DNA of 64,000 nt, taken from positions 279,871,352 to 279,935,351 of the forward strand of contig CP136064.1 in assembly GCA_032622095.1 (NCBI GenBank), written 5' to 3'. A model generated the notes under the pieces. It was not told where the DNA came from. It did not search any database and saw nothing but the letters and a program-made list of their open reading frames with translations. The stretch is from Siphonodentalium dalli (Eukaryota; Mollusca; Scaphopoda; Gadilida; Siphonodentaliidae). Positions within the stretch are counted from its first letter, which is position 1. Every line of letters starts with the position of its first letter. Below, in pieces: positions 7,272 through 63,789 of this stretch. Both the position numbers and the translations under genes were made by a program.

Positions 7272-10200
7272 ATGGCTGCCTCCATGAAAACGCATTCGCT
7301 TCTCAGATTCTTACAGAAATCCCCGATAAAAGACGGTCGTGGTATCATGTCATTCAAATTGTTCAGCAGGAGTTATTCTAGACCGATCAGACGAAACGTT
7401 CGACGTATACTGACACAGCAAGATGAGCTGCAGTCTTTGAATAAAACTGCAAGGAAAGTGAAAGATCCCAAGAAAAATGCATTCGTACCATTTGTTCCAG
7501 GGGATCCAATCCAATCTTCGTGGGTTGGTGTTGACCGAAGGAACTTTACCAAAAAAGACCAAATCAAAGACGCAAGTTGGCTGTCAGTAGAAGACAATGG
7601 GCCTACCATGTCGGATCGAATAACGTATACCAAAATGATGGAAGACGATGCCGAATTTGGGTGAGCATTATAATTACTAATGTAGTGTCGACACTCACTG
7701 TATGAACACACCCTTATATACTATATATAGACAACATTGGAAACAGTATAATAAAAATAGGTGACAGCCCGAGGTGGCATGCATATTAACCAAAGTTTAT
7801 TTCTGCAGGCATGCTAGATCCATTGGATCTTAGTATCATGGCTTACACCAGCTAAGATCCATCTTGCCCTTTAAACAATATAGGCGGCTATAATTCCTAT
7901 AAAAGTTACAGTTATGACCAACGCATATGTATTTATCAACTAAATACTAATACCAGTGTGAAACCATCCACTCACCTACGTGTCATTTATCCTTAAAATC
8001 CGTCAAATAACAGAACGTAAACACAGACATTGCACGCGTTCCTGAATACCCGTGGAAAATCCAAACTATCTACAATTAGGTCGAGTTTAACTACACTCTG
8101 CGCATGCGTGACATTTGGTCTACTGGCCTCACTACAAAAAATTCCATGAAAACTGTCACATGTGCCGTGCACGTTTGTCATGTGATATTTAGGACCTCCT
8201 ACTTTTCGTGCTTCCGCCATTTGCAATGTGTTTTCAGGATTGGATTTTTTGATTAAATAATTACGGAATTATACACACGTTATGGTAGGTGTCAGAGCTA
8301 ATATAAACTGCAATAATGTTAACATTAATGACCATGTTAGTTGATTCTTAAAATTAAGTGTATTTTTAAAAATTAGCTCGTCGCCTAAGCTCAAAGAATA
8401 TTGGCTCCACGACCTGTATGGCGTAAGCCATACTAAAAGGTCGTGTTCCAAGACCACAGGCATGCAAGAAAGTTGAGGTAATGAATATGCTGCCTCGACC
8501 TGTCACCTATTTGCGTGATACTGTCTACAACCTTGTCTATTTCTACAGGGGTGGCGGCTACGATCCCTGACATGGCGGCTATAAAATCCCAAAAGCTACC
8601 ATGCCAACCATTGCAGATTCACCAGATGGGAAGGTTAACGCTCCCCGACAGTCCCCTACCCACCCATGGTTCCACTACAGGTATGAGGTTGCGGTCACAC
8701 AGTGAGTGTCCAATACAAGGGGACTACAAGCTGGAACTACCATGTCTTTGCATTGGCGTTGCCAAAAGCAATGAAGTTCATGACATCAACCATCCGCTCC
8801 GGGTGACAGATATGTTTTTTGATCCGACTTTAAAAACAATGAAAGTAATTATAGCATCAATGGTGGTCACAGTCATGGATTAACTTATCCAACACAAGGG
8901 TGTGGAATATAAACAGAACACAACTTGCATAATAATCTAGAAGCTTTTATCAAACTTGTTGTGGATGGCGCACAGTGGTCAAATTGGCCAATAGCCAATC
9001 TTTTTAGAATTTGGCTAATAAAAATTTCATTTGGCTAAACTTTTTTTTACCCCAATTGGAGACGGGAAGCATGTAGCCAGAAAGCTAATTAAAAAGCGCT
9101 GAATAGATCGACATTCAAGACGAAGTTAGGTGAGTATTTTTGTAATGTCCAATACATTGGCGGATCGGAATAGTATCCATCATTCACATTCACTGCACAT
9201 AATCAAACGTCACGAGACAGCAACAGGTAAGCTCTAACATTTAACCAGCCTAATCGTCAAAATGCTTAATCTGTACACTGGTTATGTAATTTATGTTGAT
9301 TAGGCAGTCTGTAAGAAGATAAAATACCTAAATGTAGTGTTCCTTATAATTGGATGTACAGGCGAGCAGTTCTTAACTCAATGGTTACGTAATGTGTCAT
9401 AAACTGCATCCCGTCTAATAACCACCTGGCTTCACATCATAAAAGGTTTGAATACAATAGATATTCAACAGTTATCACCTTACTATAATAAGCAATAGTT
9501 AGCGACCGTCATGGTGTCAGCGACATAGAGTTATTACAATTGGTTTAGCAGATTTATGTGATTATAATTATATAGAATGTTAGTTTAATGTTTGCGAATT
9601 TCGTTTCAGGTAATAACTCCCATAGTGCATCTGAACAAATGTTAATGGAGAGTAAAAACATAAAGGAAATACAAGTAACCAAAGTAGCCAAAGCAGAACA
9701 GTCCATCGTCTCCGCGATGACAAATTTCTGACTTTGATTTTCACCGGGCTTTTTGCATATGGTTGGATGTGAAATCCCGCCGTATTTTGTATTAATGCTT
9801 TACATGAATTGATCTGTCTGTGCGATATAACGCATACCTATGTTCGTATAATATTGTTTTTAAAGTTGTTTTTGTGTTGTTTTAGTTATGTTTTAATTCT
9901 GAGTAACAAATCAAGTTTAACACAAATATACTAGTCATTAATTGTGAAGCGCCGAGAAAATGAGGATTTAATTTGGCCCAAGTGTTTTTCATTTGGCAAA
10001 AAAACATTTGGCCAAAGTTTTTTTCATTTGGCTAATAAAATTTTCATTTGGCTAAATTTTGGCCACAAAAGCTTTCGGTCCAGTGTGAACACTGAACGCG
10101 CATAGTTAAGTCCGAAAACTTATTTCCACTGTGGTCCCAGTAGTGTAGTGTTGTGGTTGCTGTGTAAAAATAGAATAACACTTTTTCTGCATGAGAGATT

Positions 10201-13200
10201 TACATCTATGATACTATAGTGGGCCTGTTGTAAAAGTCTTTTGTATTAATATTTCGTCATTATATTCTACAGTATGATTTAAATTTATTTGGCTGAAATT
10301 CAGTGAAAATATACCGAAAAGGAGTTTAATATGAATGCATCATCACAAATCACCATGGAATGTTGTTTATGTTGGTTAGATGAAATATCAGCATTGATAT
10401 ACTTACAAACATATTTATTTGAAATACAAAAGTATACAGGTATGATAGGCGTATACATATGTAGTTGAATATTATGCCTGTGATCTCAGAAATATTTTGA
10501 GGATCAAATGCATAACATATCTATGAACCAAAGATTATTAATATATCTGTTAAATTCTTTTCTTTGCAGGAAATCTGTGATGGAAGCCAAATCAAAGAAG
10601 CTAAGAGCAGAGAGTGGGAGAATCCTCCTGGAAGGCAAACGACTGATTAAGGATGCAATCATGGCTGGAGTTACAGTGGAAAAAATATTCTTCTCTGGAG
10701 AATCAAGTATCTTGAATGAAATAAATACCACTGATGTTCAGAACTTTCCAGCCTACAAGGTCCTATACAAACATATGAAGCTCTGGTCAGATACACAGAC
10801 ACCACAAGGAATTATGGGTATGTGGATTATATAGCTAGTTTAATATTTTTGCAGATAAATAAAAGGTGTGCATAATGTATAATAATTTACCAGTTCCCAT
10901 AATTGCAGCTCTCGACAATTGGCCATGGAAATAAGCAATGCCATGGGAAACACCGTTGCAACATGTTGAATCTAACATGCCACAGCATTAAGTTTTCTGT
11001 GGGACAAATTTCAAGGGCTGTTTAATTGCATAGACTACTTAATATATAAGATGTAGAAACAATGAAAACATCCCAATAGTTGAAGACATGTTATTTTCTT
11101 TCAACTGTATGCATGCTCATCTTTGGTGGGACAGGCATCAGCCGCATCACACTCTATAATAAATTGAATGTGAATCCGTCCATATTTGGATATTCAGTCA
11201 TAGTGTTATGAATAGAAATTAGGTGGCATGTTGTTATGCGCAAAGTGTCACATATAACCGCGCCTCTATGAAATTTCTATTCAAACACTGGAACAAATGT
11301 TTAATTTGATATCATTTACCCTGTCTTGACCAGAATTTTTGTTTTGTTTATTGTTGCATGGCCTTATTCCTGCTGACACAAATCAACTCCACACATATAA
11401 AAAAAATTGTATTTGAAGAAGAAATCAGCATTTAGTACGGGTACGGAATGTTGACAACAGTAGTGATGTTGAGGCACAGATAAATGCTCAATTTTACTTT
11501 TGTATGTTTGATGTTGAATTCACAGTTAATGCCACCCATAAATAAAAGAAGTGAAAACTCTTTTTGTACCTGTGTTCAGATAGATCATTCATAGATTCGT
11601 ACTATGACTAGAAGTGCGATTTTGTTCACAGACCGTGTTCGGATGGATCATTCATAGAGGTGCAGGTTTGTTCACAGACCGAATTCAAAATCGACCTGTG
11701 CCCATACACTTCAGATAACAATTTTTTGTGTCAATCATTATGCGCAAACAACCAGCTCTGGTGTACACATTCATTTCTAAAAGCATACATTGGAATGGTC
11801 TATTTAATTTACTGAGCTGTCCACGTATTATAAGTAAACTGAGACATAGAACTTCCCTTGGGATACCTATTCATTCTTTTGTGGGGATGTTCAGACATTG
11901 GTTCAACTAACAAATATTTGTTCAAATTATTACCTGAATATCCCAACAAATTATGAAAATGCTAAATGGTAATCAAGTAAGTTGTAACTGACCATCAGTT
12001 AAGTACTCATGTTATATTCATAAAGGTAGCATTACACAATTTCCAGCAATCTTCGCCAACTTGGGAGGGGGTTCTGTAATTCAAATCTATGCTGAGCTGT
12101 TATCTTTGACATACATGTAGACCCCATCAAGCATTTTTTTGTTTTCGGCAGAAGTGATAGGTGTAAACAAATGTCTGTACTTCGGCTAGTTCGAACAATT
12201 TATCACTGAATTATGCCCCTTGATTTGCACACTAAACGTCCAACGTTCCCCATTTTTTGACAACCCAAAAGCAGATCATGACAGAGCGAATGTCAGCAAA
12301 TGAGCTTCTTCTTCCTGATAGAGCTATGGTACTGCAGAGAAATATTTGAAATAGAAAAAAAGTTATCAAAGCAATTTCAAAATATTGTCTTGCAGATGCA
12401 GATGAAAAAATTCAGAAGAGAGATATCGGCTATTTTCCTATAACTAAACATATGGAGTTGGCCTATACTAAAAACAAACATCATGTTAGCATCCAAATAT
12501 TTAACTTTTTTTGTGAACTTTCAGTTTTGTAAAATAATTAAACCATCAAACCAGTAATGTCAAAATCACATTTAATACAGGCTACATTGGCAGTTATGCT
12601 CCCCAGATACCTATTGTTCTATATTTCAGACCTCTACAACCTGTGAAATTGTGTACTGTTACCTAAGATGTGGATCTAAGACCATATGAATTATTTCTTT
12701 ACAGCAATATGCAAGATGCCAAAGGTTGGAGAGGGGATACACGCAACTGATGACAGTTTGCCGATCACCATGATTTGTGACAATGTTAAAGACCCGGGAA
12801 ACATGGGAAACCTGATACGGTCTGCAGCGGCTGTTGGCGTCAAAAACTTCCTTGCTGTTAAAGGTATGAACAGTAGTTGAACAGTAGTTGAACCGTTGAA
12901 CTCGAGCTTCCTGAAATTTTGCAAGAACCCTGTGCCATGAATTCTCTTATATATGTGAGTCTCCCATAGGGAGCCTCGCATATATAAGAGAATACATTGG
13001 TATTGTACGCCAGTGCGTTCTCTTATATAGGCGAGGCTCCCTATCTCACATTTATTAGAGAATGCTCTGGAAAAGGGTCTTTAATGCTGCACAAGCGCAG
13101 CTCTCGTCATGACAGGTTTAAATTGATAAATTCCTGTATTTCCGATTATAATGGTGTCCCTACTCATTATAATCGTCTTATATAAAATGGGCATTTGTAT

Positions 13201-16200
13201 TGCATAATACTTATCAGATCTTAGAATTGTAATGTTGAAGTGTAAATTGAACTTGAGTTATTATGACTTCTCCTTGACAACAGTCCACTTCTCCCCTAAT
13301 AATCAAATAGGGAGAAGTGACTTCTCCATTTTTGAAACCTCTGGGCTGGTCCCTGCTCCTATTGCAGAAGGTTCAAGGTAGGGTCCGGCGAAGCTTCGAG
13401 ATTCGATTCGATTCGAAATCGTCTTACTGATTCGATTCGATTCGAAATCGATCGTGTGATTCGAATGTAGTTCGAATCACCATATTAACCTCATTATGTG
13501 CGAACTTGTTGAACAGCGTGTCCTACAAAAGCTCTAAAACAAACGCACGCAGATGTCGTTGCGAACGCCGTCGGTGCACGAGATGCGGTCCTGTTTCGTT
13601 CAGTAAATTATTGCTCTTGGGTCGTCGTGGCGGCGAAATATCCATATCATCGATCCATCTCTTGTGCCCTTCCCTACTTTTTATTTATCCAAAGTTATAA
13701 TGGCGGAAATTAAAAGTTATTTTGAATGCAGCGTTGACAAATTCAGGTGCAAATCGTGCACGACTGTACTATCAGTTCAGAAAACGGGCACTACCTCCCA
13801 CTTATGGGCACACCTTAGCCGCAGTCATCCTGCAATCCACCATAAGGGCAAAAGAAAAGAAAGACTCAAAACGAAAATTAACCGGCAACACGTCTAGTAG
13901 TAGCGGCGATGCGGGCGAGCCCCTAAAAAGAAACAGTTGTCACTAGCCACCTTTACGATGAAGAAAGAATTGGGCCCTGATGAAAAAAAAAGTACGACAG
14001 AGTACGATTTATCTCGTCATATTTTCATGTGCCGTTCTCAACATTTTTTATTGTGACGCCAAACACGCACAGGTGATGGTATGGGGAGACACTCGCGCTG
14101 CAGCGGGATCGCCGACATAAATCTAGTTCTTGTTGATTTACCACGGGGAGTAAGATTCGATTCGAGATTCGATTCGATGTGAAATCCGCGTGTCTGATTC
14201 GATTCGAGATTCGATTCGAACAAAATCGCCGATTCGCCGGACCCTAGTTCAAGGTCATATGAATACCACTGTTTATACCAGATAGGTACAGGTCATATGA
14301 ATACATGTACCACTGTTTTATACCAGATAAGTACAGGTCATATGAATACCACTGTTTTATACCACATAACTACAGGTCATATGAATACCACTGTTTTATA
14401 CCAGATGAGTACAGGTCATCTGAATACCACTGTTTTATACCAGATAAGTACAGGTCATATGAATACCACTGTTTTATACCAGATAAGTACAGGTCATATG
14501 AATACCACTGTTTTATACCAGATAACTACAGGTCATATGAATACCGCTGTTTCCCCTCTGCTTTCATCCGGATCTAACATCGAAATCCGTCGATAGGCGC
14601 AATTTGACCTTGATTTTACCATTTTGAAGCTCAAGGTCAGGTCAGGGTCACGATTTGACCCATCGAAAACACTCTCCGGACAAAAGCACCCCTAGGTATC
14701 AAATTTCGTCGAAATCCGTCCGTTTTACCAGATTTGACCTTGAATTGACCATTTTGAAGGTCAAGGTCAGGTCGGGGTCACGATTTGACCCGTCCAAAAC
14801 ACTCCACGGACATAAGTACCCCTAGGTATCAAATTTCGTCGAAATCCGTCTGGCAGTTTTCCCGGCCATTGCTAACAGACAGACAGAAGTCCAAAATATA
14901 TATTAGACTAGCAGGTAAGCCCGCCACTGGCGGCAATCATCAGAAACATGACAATTTTTAATTTTTTTAATTTTATTTTTAATTTTTTGTTTTTCAATGA
15001 GTTAATTGTGCCTTTTTAATTTACTGGCTTTTTTAATTAATTTTTTGTTTTTCAATGAGTTAATTGTGCCTTTTTAATTTAATTTTTTGTTTTTCAATTT
15101 TACCCGATTTGACCTTGAATTGATCATTTTCAAGGTCAAGGTCAGGTCGGGGTCACAATTTAACCCGTCCATGACACTTCCCGTAGGTAGCAAGTTTGAG
15201 CTCAATCGGTTTGAGTCCATAAAGGACACACACATATATATCATTTGTGGGTACCCGTTTCAAGGTCAAGGTCACCTCTCGCAGTAAAACTGACCTGATG
15301 AAAATCTCCCCCGTTCCTTGGAACCCCCAAGTACGAAATTAAGTACGAACTTTCGTCTCGAGACGGTCAATGGAGCCGTATTTATACTTGTCGTGTATAT
15401 AGACGCTCTTTATCAACGACACTGCGGATACGAACGCTCTTTAACTATCAACGCGATTAACACCACAGTGCCGTTTTTTGGGAGTGAAGAACGGGTGCTC
15501 GGAGCTTCTCCAAAACGCCGCGACGACCATTCTCTTGGGTTTTTACCATTAGATGGGAAGTTTGGTCTCGATCGGTGCAGCCGTTTTCGATTCTATAAAG
15601 TATATATATATATATATATATACACATATATATATATATACGGGAGTCTCAAAATATATATTAGATGAGTACAGGTCATCTGAATACCACTGTTTTATAC
15701 CACATAAGTACAGGTCATCTGAATACCACTGTTTATACCACATAAGTACAGGTCATATGAATACCACTGTTTTATACCACATAAGTACAGGTCATATGAA
15801 TACCACTGTTTTATACCACATAAGTACAGGTCATATGAATACCACTGTTTTATACCAGATAACTACAGGTCATATGAATACCACTGTTTTATACCAGATA
15901 AGTACAGGTCATATGAATACCACTGTTTTATACCAGATAAGTACAGGTCATATGAATACCACTGTTTAATACCAGATAAGTACAGGTAACAGGTCATATG
16001 AAAACCACTGTATTATACCACATAAGTACAGGTCATATGAATACCACTGATTTATACCAGATAACTACAGGTCATATGAATACCACTGTTTAATACCACA
16101 TAAGTACAGGCCATATGAATACCACTGTTTAATACCAGATAAGTACAGGTCATATGAATACCACTGTTTTATACCAGATAAGTACAGGTCATATGAATAC

Positions 16201-17475
16201 CACTGTTTTATACCACATAAGTACAGGTCATATGAATACCACTGTTTTATACCAGATAAGTACAGGTCATATGAATACCACTGTTTATACCACATAAGTA
16301 CAGGCCATATGAATACCACTGTTTTATACCAGATAACTACAGGTCATATGAATACCACTGTTTTATACCAAGTAAGTACAGGTCATATGAATACCACTGT
16401 TTTATACCACATAAGTACAGGCCATATGAATACCACTGTTTTATACCACATAAGTACAGGTCATCTGAATACCACTGTTTTATACCACATAAGTACAGGC
16501 CATATGAATACCACTGTTTTATACCACATAAGTACAGGTCATATGAATACCACTGTTTTATACCACATAAGTACAGGCCATATGAATACCACTGTTTTAT
16601 ACCAAGTAAGTACAGGTCATATGAATACCACTGTTTAATACCAGATAAGTACAGGTCATATGAATACCACTGTTTAATACCAAATAAGTATAGGTCATAT
16701 GAATACCACTTATACCAAATAAGTACAGGTCATATGAATACCACTGTTTTACAAGTTAAGTACTGCTCTCAAACTAAATGAAAAGTCTCCTCCAAGCTAG
16801 AGGGAATTCTTCTCTAAGGTACACAAAAACGGCCAAACGAAAACTGTCACCCTATCCCTGTTATATTATTGTGTAGATTCTGGTCAGCTACCACAAGATA
16901 AACTTGGCCTCATTCATTATACATTTCTCATTTCAGGATGTGTAGACATATGGGAGCCGAAAGTTCTCCGAGCTGGTTCAGGTAGTCACTTCCATGTTCC
17001 AATTATAAACAATATTCCCTGGGAGCACATTAATAACTACATTGGTGAGGGAAGTCATGTATTTGCTGCAGACTTACAGAAAAATATTTCTGATGAAATT
17101 AATTCTGACGAAGCTGAGGTTCTGATAAAGTCTTCACAAGAATCTATGAAATCTGTTGATTACATTGAAAACGAGGATGAGTGTGATGACAAATTTGAGA
17201 TATCAAAGGGATATTTGGATAAAAATTTCCTGGAACTATATCGAAAAGCACCACTATCCTCATGTGAATACACCAAAACAGACTTCAAACAGAACAATAT
17301 CGTGTTCGTGATTGGAGGTGAAACTGTCGGACTAACTGCTATGGCTAAAAAGTTGGTGTTCGATAATTATGGACAAGTGGTTTACATCCCTATGTCTAAT
17401 AATATGGACAGTTTGAACTCGTCTGTTGCAGCAAGTATCATACTATATGAAATGAGACGACAGCTGAGTAGTTGA
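7272..17475 (+). CDS. MRM3: Mitochondrial rRNA methyltransferase 3 (SpoU family)
   Basis: Four exons, 7272-7660, 10570-10817, 12705-12863 and 16937-17475 (TGA), join in phase into 444 residues; human MRM3 has about 420. MRM3 makes the 2'-O-methyl guanosine in the peptidyl-transferase A-loop of mitochondrial large-subunit rRNA. The first 45 residues are rich in Arg, Lys and Ser and lack acidic residues except one, as expected for a mitochondrial presequence. Residues 131-212 form the RNA-binding N-domain (RILLEGKRLIKDAI; WSDTQTPQGIMG). SpoU motif 1 is NVKDPGNMGNLIRSAA from N239, with the key Arg at 251. Motif 2 is VIGGETVGLT (GGE 392-394; GGE for the more usual GNE is also seen in human MRM3). 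Motif 3 is IPMSNNMDSLNSSVAAS from 416. CVDIWEPKVLRAGSGSHF right after exon 3 also matches human MRM3. In-frame TTG upstream of 7272 was not used; ATG at 7272 fits the family. Convergent with EMG1. Confidence 0.96.
7756..8511. mobile_element. TIR element ATAGGTGACAG, about 755 bp
   Basis: AATAGGTGACAGCCCGAGG at the left is inverted at the right as CCTCGACCTGTCACCTATT. A second hairpin lies inside (8408-8446, CACGACCT...AGGTCGTG). No duplication could be read. An open frame on the minus strand (8226-7993) has no recognisable domain and I do not call it a gene. It lies in MRM3 intron 1. Confidence 0.6.
8690..10120. repeat. Dispersed repeat interrupted by TTTGGCTAA-rich insertion
   Basis: The segment 8690-8985 is a copy of the 2037-2330 repeat. 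From 8977 to about 10070 lies an insertion with inverted ends (GTGGTCAAATTGGCCAA and TTTGGCTAAATTTTGGCCAC) and repeated CATTTGGCTAATAAAA motifs. Repeat-like sequence resumes at 10081. The insertion is probably a DNA transposon; the TSD is unclear. Confidence 0.5.
10850..12660. other. MRM3 intron 2, no recognised feature
   Basis: About 1.8 kb of AT-rich intron sequence. A short direct repeat of the type TTCAGA-ATTCATAGA-TTGTTCACAGACCG occurs twice at 11580-11690. I see no other repeat and no coding signal. Confidence 0.5.
12885..13118. mobile_element. Family B1 hairpin MITE, degenerate ends
   Basis: Two head-to-head hairpins built on ATTCTCTTATATATG-GAGTCTCCCATAGG flanked by the family ends (CTTCCTGAAATTTTGC; CAGCTCTCGTCATGACAGG). 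It starts about 20 bp after the exon 3 donor of MRM3. Confidence 0.7.
13379..14246 (+). mobile_element. Non-autonomous hAT element with BED zinc finger, 868 bp
   Basis: TIRs TAGGGTCCGGCGAA and TTCGCCGGACCCTA are flanked by a perfect 8-bp duplication GTTCAAGG (13371-13378, 14247-14254), as in hAT elements. Subterminal runs of GATTCGATTCGA occur at both ends. Within it, 13694-13888 encodes a BED finger (FRCKSCTTVL, then TTSHLWAHLSRSHP), the DNA-binding module of hAT transposases. The catalytic RNase-H-like part is absent. Confidence 0.88.
13694..13897 (+). pseudogene. BED-type zinc finger remnant of hAT transposase
   Basis: About 65 residues starting MAEIKSYFECSVDKFRCKSC. The C-x2-C pair and the later H-x4-H pair (HLSRSH) define a BED finger. 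The frame ends shortly after, and no dimerisation or catalytic domain follows. The overlapping frame at 13722 is a shadow. It is transposon-derived and probably not a host gene. Confidence 0.75.
14255..14556. repeat. 39-bp satellite, left block (about 8 units)
   Basis: Units of the type ATGAATACCACTGTTTTATA-CCAGATAAGTACAGGTCAT. The 39-bp period equals 13 codons, so long open frames (MNTTVLYQISTGH repeated) arise by periodicity alone. It directly abuts the TSD of the hAT element. Confidence 0.9.
14557..15662. mobile_element. Dispersed repeat block splitting the 39-bp satellite
   Basis: Contains at least three related copies of a GACCTTGAATTGACCATTTT / AAGGTCAAGGTCAGGTCGGG module (14600, 14735, 15105), a GACAGACAGAAGTCC tail and (TA)n/(CA)n stretches. 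A short AAAATATATATTAGA direct repeat occurs at 14893 and 15652. The class is unknown; it may be composite. Confidence 0.5.
15663..16760. repeat. 39-bp satellite, right block (about 28 units)
   Basis: Same unit as 14255-14556, with CCAGATAAG, CCACATAAG and CCAAGTAAG variants interspersed. It ends 176 bp before MRM3 exon 4. Open frames on both strands are artefacts of the 13-codon period. Confidence 0.92.
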
Positions 17476-53700: not shown

Positions 53701-56700
53701 ATATATACTATAAAAGGTACATATTTCAAGTATATCAACAATAGTAATTTGAAATATACATTGTATATATATATCATTCTGTTAAATAATATAATAGGCT
53801 ATATGATGTAGGATAGTACAATGTCATATTTATGTCATTCTTTATTTAGATTTGATGTATGGGTAGTACAATGTGATAATTGGTCATTCTTTATAGTGGA
53901 ATACATTAGTTTATACAAAACAATGTTCTCCTTACATTTTCTTAACCTGGGAAGGTATAATAACCCATGCTAACTATGGGCATTATCCCCATAACAAAAA
54001 TAAAAATAAAACCCTCACTCCCTCATCGATTCTCAAAAAAAATTGCCCAAGAATCAAAAAACTTTTTTTGTTTGGCCTTAAAGATGCATTATAAAATTAT
54101 CTTCCTAAACACATCTTTCCGGAGTATAAAATAATAGATATGAGTCGAAGATAACTGTCCGGTAATGCTACTATCAATTAATTTTGATTTTATATCAACA
54201 TTTACTTATAAAATGATATAATCAATTGGGACATTTTTTCATTACTATTTTTTAGGAGTTCTCTGCTGTTGATCATTCCATTCCATTTTGAAAACTCATT
54301 ATTCACGGAATATTATTCTGAACATTTGGGCATGGAACTAATGAACCAGCTTTCAATGCAGGCTACATAATTATTGCGTGTTTGAACTGTAAATTTAGGA
54401 ATTTGTTTATTTATTTTATTGCGGTCAAGTACCTTGAAACCTTGGTGATATGTGCACTGTACAAGAAATATGTGATATGATAAGATATATATGTGATATG
54501 ATAAGATATGATAAGATATGATAAGATATGATAAGATATGATAAGATATATATGTGATATGATAAGATGTGATAAGATATGATAAGATATGATAAGATAT
54601 GATAAGATGTGATAAGATGTGATAAGATAAGATATGATAAGATATATATGTGATAAGATGTGATAAGATATGATAAGATAAGATAAGATATGATAAGATG
54701 TGATAAGATGTGATAAGATATGATAAGATATGATAAGATATGATATGATAAGATATGATAAGATATGATAAGATGTGATAAGATATGATAAGATATGATA
54801 AGATATGATAAGATATGATAAGATGTGATAAGATGTGATAAGATGTGATAAGATATGATAAGATATGATATGATAAGATATGATAAGATATGATATGATA
54901 AGATATGATAAGATATGATAAGATATATATGCAAGTGCTTATGTGGTGTGATTTTTGTTCTCAGATCGAATCTACAGAGGAAAATAGCAGCAAACCATCT
55001 AATTGAAGAGTTCTTTGATAGCGTTCACTCCATCCTGATTCTCGCTCTTATGGATAGGTAACAAGCTTTTACATTCTAAGATTGAAGAGTTCTTTGATAG
55101 CGTTCACTCCATCCTGATTCTCGCTGGGGCCATCTATTATACTCAACAGAATATATGCAACAAAATTTATGAATCGAGTCATTAACTCATTATCATTATA
55201 ATTACCATGGTGCAAATACATTCATTTGTTGCATATATTCTGTTGAGTATAAAAGGAGATGGTCCCATAAAGTACCCCTTTAACAAGTGCTATTGTCTCT
55301 TGCAGGGAATCATATGGCTGGGAGTTACTTGTTGAGGTGTACAAAGTGTTACATTCCACAGCTGGTCGACTCTTTCTTATAACAGAACAGAACAAAGCCA
55401 TCAGAGCTGTTATTACTGGACTATCTGGTGTAAGTAGAGAGTCTAAAAGAAGATTACGAAATCCTAATCTATCTATATAAAAGCCAAGTGTTTGTGTCTG
55501 TTTGTAACTCTGTCACGTTTTTGGTGCATTTAAAAATATGTGACCTTCATGTCCGATTGCCCCCAAATTTTGACCATGTCCTGGGCCACATCTTAGAATA
55601 TGACTCGCATAATTTCAGGCCAATCGGTTCAAGACGATCTGAGATATAATGCATTTGCCAAAGGTTGTCAAGGAGATATTTTCCCTGATATAATGAGTTT
55701 GTCCGAAGACGAATGTGGTTTCAGCGTCATTAGAAAATAACAAAGCCAAATTCTGGACAAACTCCGCGCACACTTTGATGGCTTTCTTTATAACATTTCT
55801 ACGATATTTTACTGTATGTCATGTTTGTCAACCCGTCATTTTTATTGGCAAACCCCTAGTACACTGATAAAACAAACCATATATCCTAACACACCAGAAT
55901 AAATTGACAAAATCCTGGCATCATGCTGGCTTTCCATGTTTAGCGGAAGCATCTTGAAAAATTTACAAACTTTCTGTTCCCATCTCCTGAAAAGTAGTCT
56001 GGCAGTACATTAACCCACTTGACTAAATACTCATCATTGACGAGTAGTTCCTTCTTAGGATATTTTCAGATAATAAGTTCATAAAAACTACCGTTTGTTG
56101 GATTTATTATCTGAAAATTTCCCACCAATTAATATTAATCATTCTGATCTTGTATTATCTGTTTTTCTGTCTTTCATCTGCTTTTATTACCTGAACACCC
56201 CTCTAAATGAATAATAGACCATTCAATGTATACTATTTTTACTAAGTGAGAGAACCGATTCAGTATAGAAGGGGTCAGGCAGAGATTCAGTATATTACTC
56301 TGATTTCATTTCCATGCAGCACAGGAGGTTTTGAATCAAGTATTATAACAACCACACACATGGCCGTGCTGTGGTTGTCTATAATTTAGGCGGAGGTGAA
56401 TGACATCATATAATTTGTTCCATATCGATCACTGATATTTTAAGATTGCGGGTGTCAATTTTGGAGAAAATATCACTTGTCTTCCAGTTAGCAACTGTTA
56501 TAAGATTGCTAAAGCATGGAATCGGCAATGAACTAACGAGATGAAAATAAAATTGGCTACTTCACAACTTCCAAAGAATTCCCATGTGATTTAGGCCTAC
56601 ATGTATTAGTTTAATTTAGACCAATTTTGTGGGTTAGCTTAATGAAAGCCAGCGAAGATGCCATGGTATGTTTCATGATGTCATTTACATCATTTTGGCT

Positions 56701-59700
56701 TTGCGGGCCAGAATCCAGATAAGATTGCACAATCTATGACAAGTCTTGTCATGTCGTCTCCACCGGGTCATTGCACGATGTTTCATATATTATTCTTAGC
56801 GTTATGTTTTGGATAAAAAGCAAATTCGAGGCACATCGTGTATGGTTGCTCCACTACGTGTCACGTGTAATTCATATTACATGGGTTAACTTTTCTTGAT
56901 TTTACAGGCTTGACATCTGAGATGATGATTATTATAACTGCTGGTAAAGGGGTGAATTTTACACTAATCTGAGATGATGATGATTATTACAAATGCTGGT
57001 AAAGGGGTGAATCCATGTCTCAAATTAATTCATTTGTTGCATATATTCTGATGAGTATAAAAGGAGATCCTACAAATGGCAGGATTTAGTGTACAGTACC
57101 CCTTTAGCACAAACCGTTAATTTATACAGTTGCTTGAGTTTTTGCACTGCAATTAACAAGTTACTCAGATTCATTTTCCATGCATTTCAAAGCCTTGAAA
57201 GTGTGTCTGTCATTTGTAGAATGAAGTTCCCATGCAGACGATGAATTTAGTGACGCTGTCCCATGTGGCAGAAGTATCTACAGTCTCAATTTAATATTGT
57301 TTTAGTTACATTTCCTCTTCTGTTCAGCTTCAATATTCCCTACTATGCAGAAGATAAAATGCATAATTGAGGTGACTAATGGGTGAACATCACCAACTTC
57401 AACTGTGGAACTTCAATCAGATCCTAGGTCTCCCCTGGTATTTGAAGCCTAAGCAGAATGAGGACCTTAGAGGATGAATTTGGTGATGCTAGCCCACCAT
57501 TTGGATAGCGTCACTAAATTCACCCTCTGGGGACCTCATTCTGCAAATGACAGACACACTATTTCAAGGCTTGTGCATTTCCTATCTTTTAGAGCGCCGA
57601 TCCTTCATTTGTACGGAATGAGATGATGCAGTACAGGGCTAATATAGCTGAACTCTTCAATAATGAATTGTAAGTGTCACATCAGGCCTCAAAATATGGT
57701 GCCAGACAATGCCAATGTAATCGATTATGGTTACAGTTACTTTGGTTTACATGATTACGATTACTGATTACATTTTTTCAAATATAATCTAAAATGATTA
57801 CAATTAAATTTGTAAAATGTTAACGATTACTTGTTTATTACATCTTATTGCAATATTTAGTTTCCAACAATTTTCATCCCATAGAAATAAAATAATGAAA
57901 TGTTATTGAATAAAAACAACACAATATAACATGTAAATAAGGAACCATTGAACAAATAAAACAAACAAGCAATGAAAACATTCAACACAACGATAGCCTT
58001 TAAACTCTGCCATTACATTTCACCATCATAAAGATTAATCAGACAGCCAGAGTAACGGTTCCTGGTTAGATCTGAATATTTTGTGCTGCTCTAAAACTAG
58101 CCCCTAAAACTGTCCCGCGGATGTGATAAGAAATTCTAAGTAAAATTTATATTAATTTATAGAAGCTTTTCCGGACAACTGTCCTCGATTCATATCTATT
58201 ATTTTATACCCCAGATTCCATATAAAACTTTCTGGGAAAGTTATAGACGATCTTTAATAATATAATTTTATAGATGGATACATTTTTGTCATGTATTCAT
58301 CAGTTATTTGTGAACAATTTAATTCAGCTATAATACATTTTTTCATACATCAACCAATGATTTGTGAAAATAGAGTAATAAGGACTCATACTACACAAAT
58401 GTTTTGTGAGTTATACATAGTAATGAGGATTGTTTGTCCATTACAGACAAGAGAGAAGTTTAGACATGATGTCAGCTGGTAACTATCTTGATGGATTGAT
58501 TGAGGACCTCCTCGATGTCGATGACAATAACTTCTCATCTCAATCTCATTTCGCAAAGGTTCGTCTATTGTGGATTTTCAAAAACCTTTGTTATCATTAT
58601 GTCCTCTTGAATTGTCAAAGCATTTTGAATACTTTTGTAGCTAGACCAAATAATTAAATACAGTCCTCTCTGGTACCTCTGACATGACCGGAGGAGAATC
58701 TGATCATTTTAATTTGTTCTGGAAAACCTACATATCGTCGGTGGGCTTCTACCTGCAATTTTGGTGCGAAACTTTTATTGCATATACGGAATCAACAGGT
58801 TCAATTACATAAATTCCTCAGATAACTTGTCAATATTTCAAGTATAAATGCCATTTTTCCATGTTTATCAGGGGAAATTGGTGTTCTAAAATGTCGTATC
58901 TGGGTTCCCAGTGAAATTTTTTATTAATTCTATAACATCGTAATTTTTATTTTCGAAAACAGTCCTGATAGGATAATTCTTGGAGTTTATGTTCAACTGA
59001 TTCATTACGAGGTTGAACATAGGCTCCAAGCTGTCAAATTCGCACCATGCTACCATCAATCCACCACAATAACGTATATGTTCTGCTGACAGTCCTGGTC
59101 ATTCTTAGAAATTTTACATTTATTCTGAAGAATGATGTCAGAAATGTAAAAATCTCATATCGCTCTTAGCATAATGTTGTTCAATGTAAATGATGTCATG
59201 AAAATAGAGGCAAGCGATAGACAATGAAATGGTTGTCCTGGTTTCCCTTATGTTGACAGCTCGAGATGTAAACATGGGATATGTTGCGCGGCTCTCCCAC
59301 CAATCAGCGTTGCGGTTTCTTACTGGAGGTGAAATATAGCTAAATTTGACAAAGAACAAATTGCATTATCTGGCAACCAACTGACCCTTATAAAATCACA
59401 CTGAAATCACCTGATTACCCAATAGGGCTGTCCGCCACCGTGGACTGATTAAGATTTTTCTTTGTATTGATAGATGAAGTTACTATTGAGGAAGATAAAC
59501 AGCATGTGTAAAACTATCCTCCTTCAGCTGGTGGAAGATACACTCCCAGAATCTCCTAAACTAAAGGTAAAACTCTTGTACAATGTGATTATATAGAGAG
59601 AGAGAGTAATCAATTGGTTCCCAGAATTACGTTAAATAATTCACAAGAGGTGAGATACGTCGGTAAAAAACGAGAGCGCACGCACGAGTATCTTACCTAA

Positions 59701-62100
59701 ATGTCTCTCACCTCGAGTGAATTATTTAACGTAATTCTCGGAACTGATTGATTACTCTATTTATTATATACTTGACGATGAATTATAAGGTTTTAGCAGT
59801 GAGATATAAGTGATATCCCACTAGTGAGTGATATCAGTTTGAAATTTCTGATGTATTGACATTCATTGGGGGCCACAGGCAAGTAACTAAAGTATATAAT
59901 AAACAGAATATCCACACTTTTTCAGTGGATATGGGTTAAATCTCATTCGTGATGACAAAACATTTGAATTTCCACTCGTGGCTAAAGCCACTCGTGGAAA
60001 TTCAATGTTTTGTCATCACTCATGAGATATAACCCATATCCACTGAAAAAGTGTGGATATCCTCTATTTATTACACTTCTGCATCAATTTGGTTCGCCAA
60101 ATATGATTAACACACACAGCATTAATGCATGAAAGTCCCGATGTGGAGAAAGATTAACCACCTAAATTTCAGTCAAGATCAGTAAGCAACGTAATGTCAA
60201 TGACGTAACGAGAAATGACATCGTTCACTTGTGACATTACCATTTTTAATCAATGGCGTTTTCAATGGAAATCATGTATCGGAGTGTAATAAATACTTTT
60301 ATTGCCAGAATTCAGGGACCAGCCAATAGATAGAGGGTGACTTAAATTGAGAGATATCGTCTCTCTAAATTGTGTCATTTCTCCCTAATGTTTTCCTAGA
60401 GGGAAGTACAGCAATGCCCTAAGTAATCGACCCCTTAACCACAGCAGATTATGGGTAACTTTTCAGCTCTCCCCAGCTTTCCGATGAATGTCAACAAGCC
60501 ATATTTCCGACTAAATCCTGAAAAGTTACCCATAATTCTGCTGTGGTTAAGCGGTTGATTACTTAGGGCATTACTGTAACTTCTCTTCCATATACCAGTA
60601 TGCTTATTTCCCTACTGCATATTCAAACTGTATTTTCTGATTATACTGGTGTCCTTACTCATTATAATAATTTTATAAATGGGTTGTTGTAATATATAAT
60701 ATTCTCCCTAATAATCCTGTGTGAATCAGTGACTTCTCCCAATTTGAATCCTCAAGGCTGGTCCCTGCCAGAAGAGGTTAGTTTTAGTCTTCTCGCCAAT
60801 CTATTATTCTCGATGGAAGGGGAATAACTCTATCTCCTAGTTTTTAAGTTTGATGCATTGTGGGTAAACAAAGGGGAAGATTTGGGTGAATCTGAGAATC
60901 TTTTATCACTTGAAGGATACTCCTAAGTCACAGCTGTTCTGTATCCTGGTGAAATATATATATTTATAGTTTTATTTCATGCCAACAACAGTCAATAACA
61001 CGTACTGACTCCATAAAGAAATAATCGAGAACTCAAACATTAAAGGTACTCAATCCAATTCATATAATCAGATTCCAACAACAACAAAATTTTTAGAAAT
61101 ACCGCTTCAGTTATCAGAATCTATTAATTGCCAAATAATAAAATTGCCCGAAACGTGTTATTTAACAACATGTTGTTCGACGAAATTTGGCCTTATTATC
61201 AACACAAAGCCTATTGATTTTAGAGTTATCCATTTTCGTCCGCAATTTGGTCCGAGACCGTTGGCTCGTCAACTTTTTACTGGGCCACGAATAAGTCTCG
61301 ATGGTGAAAAATAATAGATTTCAAAAATCAATATCTAATAACTCTGAGCTTTGATTGGTGGGTTCCTCGACTCGAATCAAATAGTTTTTACCCCCAAATC
61401 CAAATAAATAGTAATTGAGGGGCCCTTAATCGGATTATGCATCTTTAAGTTGGCCTTTAACTGAGCATTCAAAGCTATTCAATATCATGGACTTATTAGA
61501 CTGGCTTTAAAATGTCTGGCCATAGTAAATAGATACATTGTTTGATATAACTTTCTTCATTAACACTTTCATGATTAGAGCTGTGCTGGTGCAGCATTAA
61601 AGATCCTGTGCCATTGCAATCTTTTATATAATTGAGTCTCCCATAGGAAGCCTTGCATACATAAGAGAATGCACTGGCTTATAAGTTCAAGTTAAATATC
61701 GTTTGGCCAATGTATTCTCTTATATATGCAAGGCTCCCTATAGGAAATTCAAATATATAAGAGAATGCATTTGCACAAAAATTCAGGAAGCTCTAGTCAT
61801 GGAGGGTTAACTTCTTCACTGCTAAATGAAGTCACAATGTCATGCTATTTGATTTTTATATGCAGTGAGAAAATAAATGGAGATATTGTGGATATCTGTT
61901 AACTGATTCCATATGGAGGTACATGTGGAACATCAAACAGTCTCATAAACGCCTAAATACACTTTTTTTTCTTCTGAATTTTAAGATTTGTAACTGAATT
62001 TCTTACCTTCTAGGATCTCATACTGAAGCTGCAGGAGAGCTTTCCAAATGATGTGAGAAAACAGTCTATATATGTTCGGGCCCGAGATCGCCATGGTAAG
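32737..62100 (+). CDS. Unidentified large multi-exon gene (5' 639 codons; continues off right edge)
   Basis: Eighteen coding exons join with matching phases into 1917 nt with no stop: 32793-32825, 35163-35282, 36982-37184, 39339-39385, 40967-41145, 41755-41871, 42803-42878, 44056-44141, 46126-46185, 48772-48872, 50272-50408, 51756-51927, 54965-55057, 55306-55429, 57593-57669, 58447-58558, 59474-59566, 62014-62100. A splice acceptor at 32736 implies an upstream non-coding exon, perhaps near the EMG1 promoter. Residues 1-51 are acidic and polar, then basic (DRGRRRRSSQ). After that the protein looks globular, mostly helical and not low-complexity: PPGFEVKSLELLESYLERSQ, GIIRSVNYQHLEKFRWLLKD, YGRKHCGLNFLEVFREAREE, IDGFRGGDDIDYGPYAWQI (423-435 core), ESYGWELLVEVYKVLHSTAG. 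No signal peptide, membrane span or enzyme motif was recognised. I do not know the family. The donor of exon 3 (GTGTGT at 37185) was chosen because it alone keeps the frame into exon 4; TGT|GTATGA is a phase-breaking alternative. Confidence 0.85.
32965..34056 (-). mobile_element. Non-autonomous hAT element with BED zinc finger, 1092 bp
   Basis: TIRs TAGGGTCCTGCGAA and TCACAGGACCCTA with a perfect 8-bp duplication GATAATAG (32957-32964, 34057-34064). Subterminal AATCGAATATCGAATCGA runs parallel the element at 13379-14246. On the minus strand, within 33537-33337, a BED finger (YTCDECNMVY ... THLWNHLPKKHP) remains without a catalytic domain. Confidence 0.88.
33337..33537 (-). pseudogene. BED-type zinc finger remnant of hAT transposase
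   Basis: C-x2-C (CDEC) and H-x4-H (HLPKKH) of a BED finger are intact, and the frame ends soon after. The protein differs from the 13694 finger, so the two derive from related but distinct hAT lineages. Confidence 0.75.
34085..34520. mobile_element. Complete family C foldback, 436 bp, TTAA TSD
   Basis: AGGTACTCAATCCGATCAGA and its complement form the ends, and the arms pair almost throughout to the centre GTTATTATTATTATTAAC. TTAA flanks both ends (34081-34084, 34521-34524). TTAA-targeted; piggyBac or Kolobok type are both possible. Confidence 0.87.
34966..35057. repeat. 24-bp tandem repeat, about four units
   Basis: Unit AAATCATATAGGTATGTTCA followed by ACT or AAT, 106 bp upstream of exon 2 of the large gene. 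Confidence 0.85.
36195..36972. mobile_element. Composite foldback elements before exon 3 of the large gene
   Basis: A palindrome at 36201-36352 (ACCTAATTTACTGGACGAGT with its inverse), an inverted pair TTATTACATGATCC/GGATCATGTAATAA (36355, 36732), and a further foldback at 36845-36960. The right end ATCCTCTATTTGTTACAG runs into the splice acceptor, so the element may have donated the acceptor tract. Confidence 0.6.
37429..37666. mobile_element. Complete family B1 TTAA hairpin MITE, 238 bp
   Basis: Ends CCCTTCTATGACTGGAACTT and GCTCCTGTCATGAAAGGG are flanked by TTAA on both sides. Two inverted ATTCTCTTATATATGCGAG hairpins form the core. The same family recurs at 41205, 47885, 48107, 50762 and 61564. 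Confidence 0.85.
37923..38935. mobile_element. TIR element CAGGCTTTCCGC, 1013 bp, 7-bp TSD
   Basis: Ends CAGGCTTTCCGCTAG and GGCGGAAAGCCTG with direct repeat GTACATC (37916-37922, 38936-38942). Related to 5571-6437. No transposase domain recognised. Confidence 0.75.
38946..39226. mobile_element. Foldback MITE GGCCATTTATGGGA
   Basis: GGCCATTTATGGGACATCTC and GATGGTCCCATAAATGGCC form the ends, with long pairing arms through ACTCAACAGATTATATGCAA to the centre TAATTATAATGACTCC. Shorter relatives lie at 55125-55285 and 57030-57110. It is adjacent to the preceding element's TSD. Confidence 0.75.
39455..39890. mobile_element. Family A MITE, long degenerate version
   Basis: Two separated hairpin arms (CTCTTGGGACCTCATTCTGC; GCAGAATGAGGTTCCCAGAG) around the conserved interior TATATCCCTAAATTGGCAGA. 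Confidence 0.65.
39951..40380. mobile_element. Complete family B2 element, 430 bp, TTAA TSD
   Basis: CCCTTTACCCAACA and TGTTGGGTAAAGGG termini are flanked by TTAA (39947-39950, 40381-40384). The first internal hairpin is truncated, the second complete. piggyBac-like by target and CCC ends. Confidence 0.85.
41205..41436. mobile_element. Family B1 TTAA MITE
   Basis: TTAA on both sides, CCCTTCATTGACTGAGC left end, GCTCCCGTCCTCAAAAGG right end. It lies 59 bp after the exon 5 donor of the large gene. Confidence 0.8.
42032..42622. repeat. Dispersed repeat with (TCCG)n and ATACCCCCG ends
   Basis: Starts ATACCCCCGCAATGAAG and ends near ACGGGGGTATCCTTAG, inverted relative to each other. It contains (GTCC)n at 42082 and a duplicated module CATGGGAACCTGTACACCTG / CATGGGAACCTGTGCACCTG. 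Intron 6 of the large gene. Confidence 0.65.
43690..44000. mobile_element. Rearranged family B1 hairpins
   Basis: Several ATTCTCTTATATATAG / CATATATAAGAGAAT hairpin arms in disturbed order, ending 56 bp before exon 8 of the large gene. Confidence 0.7.
44378..46064 (+). mobile_element. 5'-truncated Penelope-like element interrupted by a hAT
   Basis: A 14-bp direct repeat TAATTTTCTCTGGA (44364-44377, 46065-46078) flanks the insertion. Without the 1.1-kb hAT about 580 bp remain, with C-terminal GIY-YIG-type endonuclease signatures: CTYTNCEICSSFDKE before the hAT, and SCSKQYVGEAKREFYIRLLE, IIYILKSDP and LRTLQPLGMNKR after it. Penelope-like elements end in such a domain. A 10-bp duplication next to the hAT also breaks the frame. 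No reverse transcriptase is present. Confidence 0.78.
44672..45771. mobile_element. hAT element TAGTGTTCAAACGA, 1100 bp, inside the Penelope-like fragment
   Basis: TIRs TAGTGTTCAAACGA and TCGTTTGAACACTA (near-exact complement) with 8-bp duplication CTTCATGC (44664-44671, 45772-45779). Subterminal GTCGACTAGTCG palindromes occur on both sides. Unlike the other two hATs, no BED finger is recognised in it. Confidence 0.87.
46690..47009. mobile_element. Family C foldback copy, left end lost
   Basis: Central palindrome ATGGATAACTCTAAAATCAA and its inverse, right end GGATTGGGTACCTTTAA. The left arm begins only at CAGACGCTCCTAAATTACTA. Confidence 0.75.
47100..47400. mobile_element. Family A MITE with interior fragment
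   Basis: TGTGCCTGTCATTTGCAGAA, a full hairpin (47131-47222), then the conserved interior TATATCCCCAAATTGGCAGA. The right arm is missing. Confidence 0.7.
47400..47870. mobile_element. Degenerate B2-type hairpin block with CCCTTTCAGTGCCA ends
   Basis: TTAACCCTTTCAGTGCCAAG at 47396 and CCTGGCACTGAAAGGGTTAA at 47844 form inverted TTAA-flanked ends. One CTTATATATGTGAGTCGACC hairpin remains. This is a third TTAA terminal type sharing the same hairpin core. Confidence 0.7.
48107..48710. mobile_element. Middle family B1 element of the nest
   Basis: CCCTTTCATGATGGGAGCAG to GCTCCAGTCATGGAAGGG, flanked by the duplicated internal TTAA of the outer element (48103-48106, 48711-48714). It is itself interrupted by a hAT MITE. 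Confidence 0.85.
48154..48527. mobile_element. Inner hAT MITE CAGGGGCGCCGGAAG, 374 bp
   Basis: Ends CAGGGGCGCCGGAAG and CTTCCGGCGCCCCTG are perfect complements. The 8-bp duplication ATTCTCTT (48146-48153, 48528-48535) comes from the host hairpin. It is non-coding. Confidence 0.9.
49821..50212. mobile_element. Complete family B2 element, 392 bp, TTAA TSD
   Basis: CCCTTTACCCAACA ... TGTTGGGTAAAGGG with TTAA at 49817-49820 and 50213-50216. Both internal hairpins are complete. It ends 60 bp before exon 11 of the large gene. Confidence 0.88.
50430..50757. mobile_element. Family C foldback, TTAA TSD
   Basis: AGGTACTCAATCCGATCAGA ... GATCGGATTGAGTACCT, TTAA at both ends. It begins 21 bp after the exon 11 donor. 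Its right TTAA is shared with the next element. Confidence 0.85.
50762..51027. mobile_element. Family B1 TTAA MITE abutting family C
   Basis: GCTTTCATGACTTTGTTGGT ... CCTCATGAAAGGG, with TTAA 50758-50761 (shared) and 51028-51031. Two hairpin cores. Confidence 0.82.
51250..51520. mobile_element. Family A MITE, degenerate
   Basis: GGGAACCTCATTCTGCTTAG, interior GGGGGATATAGAAACTGAAC, and right arm CACCCTCTGGGGACCTCATT. Outer ends lost on the left. Confidence 0.65.
51527..51738. mobile_element. Foldback MITE, about 210 bp
   Basis: AACCACAGTGGAATTATGGG and CCCATAATTCTGCTGTGGTT form long arms meeting at GAGAGCTTTCC. A relative with a shortened loop is at 60405-60592. It ends 17 bp before exon 12 of the large gene. 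Confidence 0.8.
52012..52150. repeat. Long palindrome
   Basis: TTAATTGGTTGTTTCCATAT ... ATGTGGAAACAACCAATTAA with a short GAGGCCCCAGGTCGAAGG centre, a strong hairpin. It may be a foldback transposon. Confidence 0.75.
52617..52998. mobile_element. Family B2 element with TTAT flanks
   Basis: Same element as 49821-50212, but both flanks read TTAT (52613-52616, 52999-53002) instead of TTAA. It has both internal hairpins. Confidence 0.83.
53329..54077. mobile_element. PIF/Harbinger-like element, 749 bp, TTA TSD
   Basis: GGCCAAAAAAAAAAGTTTTTTG and the inverted AAAAAACTTTTTTTGTTTGGCC ends, each with TTA outside. Related to 19282-19963. No transposase frame seen. Confidence 0.65.
54471..54930. repeat. 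GATA-rich microsatellite (GATAAGATAT)n
   Basis: About 460 bp of TGATAAGATA-type units, many perfect WGATAR sites, with scattered TATATATG interruptions. It ends 35 bp before exon 13 of the large gene. The 169-codon minus-strand frame is an artefact of the repeat. Confidence 0.92.
55125..55285. mobile_element. Truncated relative of the GGCCATTTATGGGA foldback
   Basis: TACTCAACAGAATATATGCA and its inverse TGCATATATTCTGTTGAGTA around TCATTATAATTACCATGG. A partial duplicate of exon 13 (GAAGAGTTCTTTGATAGCGT, 55084-55125) lies just to its left. Confidence 0.7.
55440..57030. other. Intron 14 of the large gene, mostly unassigned
   Basis: Opens with a dispersed-repeat start (CTATCTATATAAAAGCCAAG). 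Contains an inverted pair around TGATGAGTATTTAGT-like sequence at 56030-56130 and a duplicated CTGAGATGATGAT-TATTA-GCTGGTAAAGGGGTGAAT at 56918 and 56970. No coding signal. Confidence 0.45.
57188..57573. mobile_element. Full-length family A MITE, about 385 bp
   Basis: AAAGCCTTGAAAGTGTGTCT and AGACACACTATTTCAAGGCTT ends, two hairpin arms and the interior GAAGATAAAATGCATAATTG. It ends 20 bp before exon 15 of the large gene. Confidence 0.83.
57705..57850. repeat. Degenerate GATTAC-rich segment
   Basis: Repeated GATTACGATTACTGATTAC-type motifs, possibly subterminal repeats of a hAT-like element. Ends not found. Confidence 0.4.
59600..60070. mobile_element. Two adjacent foldback palindromes
   Basis: 59628-59758 pairs CAGAATTACGTTAAATAATT with its inverse around GAGAGCGCACGCACGAG. 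59906-60064 is a near-perfect palindrome: ATATCCACACTTTTTCAGTG ... and complement, centre CACTCGTGGCTAAAGCCACTCG. Intron 17 of the large gene. Confidence 0.8.
60405..60592. mobile_element. Foldback MITE related to 51527-51738
   Basis: AACCACAGCAGATTATGGGT ... CCCATAATTCTGCTGTGGTT, with about 40 bp of the left arm lost. Confidence 0.75.
61045..61443. mobile_element. Diverged family C element
   Basis: TTAA-AGGTACTCAATCC at the left, GATTATGCATCTTTAA at the right. Only the right half keeps the ACTCGAATCAAATA-TTTTTACCCC block. Confidence 0.65.
61564..61806. mobile_element. Family B1 TTAA MITE, 243 bp
   Basis: CACTTTCATGATTAGAGCTG ... CTCTAGTCATGGAGGG with TTAA on both sides. The hairpins are partly decayed. 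Confidence 0.8.
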
Positions 62101-63735
62101 GTGAGTAATCGCGAAGTCAATCTATATATGTGCGTGCCAGAGATCGCCATGGTAAGGTGAGTAATCGCGAAGTCAATCTATATATGTGCGGGCCAGAGAT
62201 TGTCGTGGTAAGGTGAGTAATCGCGAAGTCAATCTATATATGTGCGTGCCAGAGATCGCCATGGTAAGGTGAGTAATTTCGAAGTCAATCTATATATGTT
62301 CGGGCCAGAGATCGCCATGGTAAGGTGAGTAATTTCGAAGTCAATCTATATATGTGCGGGCCAGAGATCGCCATGGTAAGGTGAGTAATGAGAATTAAAT
62401 CTATATATGTGTGGGCCAGAGATCACCATGGTAAGGTGAGTAATCGCGAAGTCAATCTATATATGTTTGGGCCAGAGATCGCCATGGTAAGGTGAGTAAT
62501 GAGAATTAAATCTATATATGTGTGGGCCAGAGATCGCCATGGTAAGGTGAGTAATCAAGAATTAAATCTATATATGTGTGAGCCAGAGATCGCCATGGTA
62601 AGGTGAGTAATGAGAATTAAATCTATATATGTGTGAGCCAGAGATCGCCATGGTAAGGTGAGTAATCGAGAATTAAATCTATATATGTGTGGGCCAGAGA
62701 TCACCATGGTAAGGTGAGTAATCGCGAAGTCAATCTATATATGTTTGGGCCAGAGATCGCCATGGTAAGGTGAGTAATCGAGAATTAAATCTATATATGT
62801 GTGGGCCAGAGATCACCATGGTAAGGTGAGTAATCGCGAAGTCAATCTATATATTTGTGGGCCAGAGATCGCCATGGTAAGGTGAGTAATCAAGAATTAA
62901 ATCTATATATGTGTGAGCCAGAGATCACCATGGTAAGGTGAGTAATCGTGAAGTCAATCTATATATGTTCGGACCAGAGATCGCCATGGTAAGGTGAGTA
63001 ATCGCGAAGTCAATCTATATATGTGTGGGCCAGAGATCGCCATGGTAAGGTGAGTAATCAAGAATTAAATCTATATATGTGTGAGCCAGAGATCGCCATG
63101 GTAAGGTGAGTAATCGCGAAGTCAATCTATATATGTGTGGGCCAGAGATCGCCATGGTAAGGTGAGTAATCGAGAATTTAATCTATATATGTGCGTGCCA
63201 GAGATCGCCATTGTAAGGTGAGTAATCGCGAAGTCAATCTATATATGTGCGGGTCAGAGATCGCCATGGTAAGGTGAGTAATCGCGAAGTCAATCTATAT
63301 ATGTGCGGGCCAGAGATCGACATGGTAAGGTGAGTAATCGAGAATTAAATCTATATATGTGCGGGCCAGAGATCGTCGTGGTAAGGTGAGTAATCGCGAA
63401 GTCAATCTATATATGTTCGGGCCAGAGATCGCCATGGTAAGGCGAGTAATGATAATTAAATCTATATATGTGCGGGCCAGAGATCGCCATGGTAAGGTGA
63501 GTAATCGAGAAGTCAATCTATATATGTGCGTGCCAGAGATCGTCGTGGTAAGGTGAGTAATCGCGAAGTCAATCTATATATGTGCGGGCCAGAGATCGCC
63601 ATGGTAAGGTGAGTAATCGTGAAGTCAATCTATATATGTTCGGGCCAGAGATCGCCATGGTAAGGTGAGTAATCGAGAATTAAATCTATATATGTGTGGG
63701 CCAGAGATCGCTGTGGTAAAGTGAGTATGTGAAAC
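62068..63735. repeat. 56-bp minisatellite built from an exon end and its splice donor (about 30 units)
   Basis: Unit: TCTATATATGTGCGGGCCAG-AGATCGCCATGGTAAG-GTGAGTAATCGCGAAGTCAA (56 bp, some units 55). The first unit begins inside coding exon 18 (residues SIYVRARDRHGK) and includes the donor GTGAGT. Later units copy both. Two subtypes alternate: CGCGAAGTCAAT and GAGAATTAAAT. The right end decays at 63730-63775. Confidence 0.92.
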
Positions 63736-63789
63736 AATTCATATGTGCGAGGTTCAGATACAACCATAGTAAAGTGACCGTAGTATTCA

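Follow-up and report, generated by a model that had tools for sequence, protein, structure and literature searches.

What becomes of a gene when the junction between one of its exons and the following intron is repeated some thirty times, with a single acceptor facing a long row of nearly identical donors? The question is raised by a stretch of 64,000 nucleotides from the scaphopod mollusc Siphonodentalium dalli (assembly GCA_032622095.1, contig CP136064.1, positions 279,871,352 to 279,935,351, forward strand), referred to here as the window, near whose end a 56-bp minisatellite lies across the predicted end of a coding exon. We consider it likely that this array is a mirage, i.e., a minisatellite-like tandem duplication of an exon-intron boundary of the kind described in the lancelet genes for Adh3, the globins BflGb6 and BflGb9, TnC, and PGBD5 (PMC3087553, PMC3902484), in which the first unit is exonic, the later units are intronic and removed, and the number of units is nearly neutral.

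Tandem Repeats Finder (TRF) places the array at 62065-63727 of the plus strand with a period of 56 bp, 29.8 copies, a match of 91%, and a score of 2619, the highest of all the repeats in the window. It divides into 30 units of 55-56 bp, each corresponding to the final 36 nt of the exon and the initial 20 nt of the intron. Unit 1 starts at 62065, and its portion 62065-62100 belongs to the predicted exon 62014-62100, which agrees with the initial annotation of the window in that the unit begins inside coding sequence and includes the donor of the exon. That annotation had also counted about 30 multiplied junctions, with as many near-consensus donors behind one acceptor, and both counts hold: ATGGTAAGGTGAGTAAT is kept exactly in 24 of the 30 units, and the strong donor AAG/GTGAGT (the slash marks the junction) occurs 28 times in its exact form. 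Past the edge of the array, at ~63741-63782, there is a decayed extra unit, with a local alignment score of 35 against a maximum of 31 in 500 shuffles. The locus is present a second time in the assembly, and the window is called copy 1 and the other copy 2. The units belong to two interleaved subtypes, as had been noted, and follow the order AAAAABABBBBABABAABABAABABAAABA in copy 1; the higher-order amplification that had been read into this pattern appears doubtful, as no fixed higher-order period was found among the subtyped units of copy 1, and copy 2 has a single exact two-unit block duplication, namely units 2-3 equal to units 5-6. The features needed for the argument are the following.

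55306 to 55429, plus strand: candidate upstream exon ESYGWELLVEVYKVLHSTAGRLFLITEQNKAIRAVITGLSG, a splice-bounded open frame, identical in copy 2.
57593 to 57669, plus strand: candidate upstream exon SADPSFVRNEMMQYRANIAELFNNE, a splice-bounded open frame with one synonymous difference from copy 2.
58447 to 58558, plus strand: candidate exon preceding the junction exon, of compatible phase at either end and identical in copy 2.
62014 to 62100, plus strand: predicted junction exon DLILKLQESFPNDVRKQSIYVRARDRHGK, 87 nt, exon 18 of the initial annotation, with a strong acceptor, an open frame, and a consensus donor, joining in frame to the next exons of copy 2.
62065 to 63727, plus strand: 56-bp minisatellite of 30 units; unit 1 is exonic to 62100, and use of the first donor would place all later units in the intron.
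62101 to 62106, plus strand: first strong donor, GTGAGT, the sole strong one that preserves the frame on joining to the next exons.
62152 to 62157, plus strand: weaker donor GTAAGG in unit 2, in frame on joining to the next exons, with 17 additional amino acids.
62158 to 62160, plus strand: TGA in the sequence of any transcript reading beyond donor 2.
63741 to 63782, plus strand: decayed repeat unit past the array edge, above 500 shuffles in local alignment and also present in the sequence of copy 2.
64000, no strand: end of the contig in the assembly sequence, followed by 100 N, so that the following exon lies outside the window.

The junction exon is the best-scoring splice-bounded open reading frame that ends at the first donor of the array, and it is among the best in the window overall. 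Its acceptor, TTCTTACCTTCTAG, has a strong tract with pyrimidines at 11 of 12 positions, followed by CTAG, the 87-nt open frame, and GTGAGT. The exon fits the candidates upstream of it (57593-57669 and 58447-58558) in phase, and it joins in frame to the two exons found 3' of the array in copy 2, which read NRNLAMHVDPNSLRHGMDADQIFEDEK... and then VHTSTCIEQGKAPKAVALETVLIK (sequence L040, from 1154 and 1448). The same predicted gene region holds, at 54474-54926, an array of 45 copies of the 10-bp unit GATATGATAA (TRF).

A whole-genome search with a 136-bp query from the array found it at two places only, both on scaffold C4. Copy 2 is 493 kb away, with a 99% match to the region preceding the array at C4:280426250; similarity between the copies is colinear across the window, and in samples up to 60 kb upstream, with substitutions amounting to 2.8% over 24.7 kb, plus insertions. 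The array of copy 2 has 16 units and 14 exact AAG/GTGAGT donors, against 30 units in copy 1, and its final two units are the same as in copy 1, whereas the inner ones are reshuffled. The length of the array therefore varies at this locus, either between alleles or between duplicates, which bears out the copy-number variation that the initial annotation had anticipated. Judging from the assembled sequence, the two copies are probably alleles: the contig end at 64000, the single occurrence in the assembly, in copy 2, of the exons 3' of the array, and a sequence further right of the adjoining gap (L036) that recurs almost unchanged, but inverted, at 279.74 Mb together suggest a second haplotype left in the assembly. 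A true duplication may be the case instead. The gap, at C4:279935352-279935451, directly adjoins the window end, and a simple tandem overlap of haplotypes across it was rejected, since no second copy was found for the sequence immediately to its right (L033); the inverted copy of L036, on the other hand, points to redundant contigs. More broadly, C4 from ~279.7 to 280.43 Mb seems to consist of redundant contigs, with one piece inverted.

Regarding the product, the period of 56 is not divisible by three, and in both copies the first donor is the only strong one that preserves the frame to the next exons of copy 2. Use of donor 2 leads to a stop in the next exon, and with any donor after it the transcript meets the TGA at 62158-62160, the codon that had been annotated on reading into the second unit. 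The accompanying claim that only the first donor gives a normal product is correct for the strong donors of both copies and needs one exception, namely the weaker GTAAGG after 62151, which also preserves the frame and adds 51 nt, i.e., 17 amino acids. Two further ways of handling the later donors were set aside: concealment by RNA structure, as the predicted structure leaves the donor 9-mers at least as accessible as the median of the array, and recursive splicing at a ratchet point, as GAGATCGCCATGGTAAG/GTGAGT has no polypyrimidine tract before the donor.

If the array is a mirage, a 56-bp stretch covering 36 nt of exon end and 20 nt of intron start would have been tandemly duplicated, and the resulting array would then have been expanded and homogenised by unequal exchange, with unit 1 still providing both the end of the exon and the donor in use. 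The later units would be intronic and spliced out, with exon definition pairing the acceptor with the nearest donor, which is the first. The upstream intron measures 3,455 nt by its coordinates, and the intron that bears the array ~2.0 kb in copy 2; at such intron lengths one would expect exon definition, and with it use of the first donor. Minigenes given two identical donors in an exon-definition setting used the upstream donor exclusively, and for an exon between long introns with donors equal in strength the upstream one is preferred (PMC9225289). The number of units would thus be able to drift freely, as from 30 to 16, with little effect on the product. In lancelets, haplotypes differ in the number of mirage units (6 against 3 in BflGb6), splicing was normal in the tested cases, and the units at the edges escape homogenisation (PMC3087553, PMC3902484); somatic instability has been reported for the Adh3 mirage.

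The uniformity of the donors was examined by counting the variation of each column over 42 internal units, with columns 30-45 taken as the donor block. This block has 3 variant cells and the remaining 40 columns have 134, but its excess conservation relative to the non-CpG columns is not significant (Fisher p 0.50, variable columns, 42 units), and TCTATATAT is as invariant as the donor block. The case for selection on the donors from column variation was dropped on this evidence. The lack of an excess relative to the non-CpG columns is as expected of homogenisation, which suffices to account for the uniform donors. Two points nevertheless weigh against a mirage with near-neutral units. Among windows of 16 columns taken around the circular unit, the donor block varies least (1 of 56), and weak selection may still act on it. 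Moreover, the exon 62014-62100 is predicted from splice signals and frame, and its putative peptide has no known family; Pfam and PDB searches with the spliced exons and the read-through frames gave no family match useful for naming the gene.

The rival that survives best, although we regard it as unlikely, is that the length of the array tunes the gene, some splicing from later donors adding 56n nt and a premature stop that would send the transcript to nonsense-mediated decay. There are indeed 27 more strong donors, each of which brings a premature stop, the array differs in length between the two copies, and an intronic variable number tandem repeat (VNTR) shifts splicing in TERT, though via G-quadruplexes (PMC11830802). 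On the other side, exon definition settles competition between identical donors in favour of the upstream one (PMC9225289), lancelet mirages splice normally (PMC3087553, PMC3902484), and the donors have no excess conservation once the CpG columns are set aside. Tuning of expression or splicing, as the initial annotation had proposed, is thus unsupported, with the donor columns, the minigenes, and the lancelet cases all speaking against it; what stands of that proposal is its arithmetic, i.e., a frameshift or stop for almost every later donor, while actual use of those donors is unsupported.

It is very improbable that the exon is unreal or the array an assembly artefact, leaving a minisatellite of the ordinary sort, within an intron or between genes, that happens to resemble a junction. 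The encoded peptide has no family match and a loose test finds exon-like starts at 12.8% of random positions, but acceptor, donor, phase, and frame are consistent on both sides of the exon, the four candidate exons within 55306-62100 differ from copy 2 by two synonymous changes and nothing else, and the array is present with both its flanks in two contigs.

Even less credible is an array of U1 binding sites that curbs premature intronic polyadenylation, or tethers the transcript to chromatin, with no use in splicing. Suppression of intronic polyadenylation by U1 is a known phenomenon, and the 28 sites have a strong predicted U1 pairing, at -12.3 kcal/mol for the strong donor against -5.1 to -8.1 kcal/mol for the other predicted donors of the gene; the number of units is halved in copy 2, however, and the intron there is merely ~2 kb. 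Evolution of the array into new introns or exons, with units as alternative exon ends according to the model proposed for lancelet globin genes (PMC3087553), deserves no more credence, as the AGGT and weak acceptor-like CCAG sites of the units are set against a unit with no polypyrimidine tract, a stop in every third unit in any given frame, and a period that is not a multiple of three.

Other donor-bearing arrays with a similar anchoring are found elsewhere in the genome. Triplets of near-perfect AAGGTRAGT donors at array-like spacing gave 913 + 595 matches against 221 + 215 for a reversed-pattern control, and CAGGTRAGT triplets 1153 + 1257 against 445 + 357; these numbers count matches and not arrays, and they are dominated by a small number of long arrays. 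The starts were examined for 14 arrays of scaffold C1, picked by their donor pattern. On the minus strand at L064 (C1:65905340-65905900), a minisatellite with a donor in its 41-bp unit starts at the end of an exon with a full-length match to USP47_C, the USP47 C-terminal family (Pfam, E 1.6e-12). The arrays L056, L057, L058, L061, and L065 start at exon-like sequences with an acceptor, an open frame, and no family match, L065 having the weakest acceptor of the five and a weak resemblance to fatty-acid-binding proteins (E 0.7); L056 (C1:5917550-5918070) is a 55-bp donor-bearing array of ~80 units starting at the exon-like NGESTHSLLEATQLRNKLVKSYEYIDAIR. The unit of L066 resembles the end of an EGF-like domain (best E 1.1e-4, short of the curated threshold; the start of this array was not reached). 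The array L063 follows an acceptor; its donor is preceded by ATGGCAG, and there is no long open frame. No such exon was seen at L059, L060, L062, L067, L068, and L069, the sequences of L067 and L068 beginning inside the array. In the loose exon test 5 of the 14 arrays were positive, against the 12.8% of random positions, which is suggestive only. Separately, the L056 array has a second copy 0.4 Mb off, which again suggests haplotype redundancy.

We would put forward only tentatively, as an idea that may well prove wrong, that 5' splice sites throughout this genome repeatedly give rise to minisatellites, and that dozens of genes or more have one acceptor followed by an array of competing donors that varies in length. 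Such recurrent birth at donors would perhaps be tied to transcription or to U1 binding; since the arrays were picked by donor pattern, they do not show donors to be preferred birth sites.

The window has other repeats and frames. Two nearby arrays of one 39-bp unit lie at 14252-14552 and 15668-16751 (7.6 and 27.8 copies, TRF), and a dispersed repeat with inverted ATATATAAGAGAATGCA arms is found at 61600-61810 and in many other places, with thousands of candidates genome-wide. Near the start, 6970-17472 contains frames that by eye resemble GLOD4, in the minus frame or split, and a frame resembling SpoU-family RNA methyltransferases (weak Pfam match, E 0.0018). A search for the molluscan haemocyanin domain, intended as a phylum marker, gave no match, and neither did its control.

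Donor choice among many identical sites is usually studied in minigenes with two sites. With 28 strong donors in one natural copy of this locus and 14 in the other, and seemingly further cases in other genes of the genome, the exon-definition rule of the nearest donor across the exon becomes directly testable. If such arrays are common, introns would go on growing through them, and the intronic copies would go on exchanging sequence with the last codons of the exon; recurrent birth at 5' splice sites, if true, would be a genome-wide process and not a one-off.

Among known systems, the gain of an intron in the potato RdRp gene also involved a tandem duplication of a segment with a splice signal within a gene, but that duplication, as the available part of the report describes it, created a new intron, whereas here the donor of an existing intron is repeated (PMC4974935). 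VNTR6-1 in intron 6 of TERT is likewise a length-variable intronic minisatellite, of 38 bp and 24-66 copies; it acts on splicing via G-quadruplexes and, in the part of its account available, is not described as junction-spanning (PMC11830802). In human segmentally duplicated genes, variable minisatellites at exon-intron boundaries alter the structure of recent duplicates, with ~4 units on average and with an emphasis on novel introns and retained exonic repeats (PMC2812944). The lancelet mirages are alike in having a unit that spans the boundary and a repeated splice signal. Their haplotypes differ in unit number; here the two copies, probably but not certainly alleles, have 30 and 16. The lancelet globin mirages have few units, against 30 and 16 at this locus and ~80 in L056, and lancelets have mirages at both types of boundary, while the examples examined here are all at 5' (donor) boundaries. 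By its anatomical features, the array thus appears to belong to the known mirage kind, to which this one genome contributes several examples and arrays of larger size.

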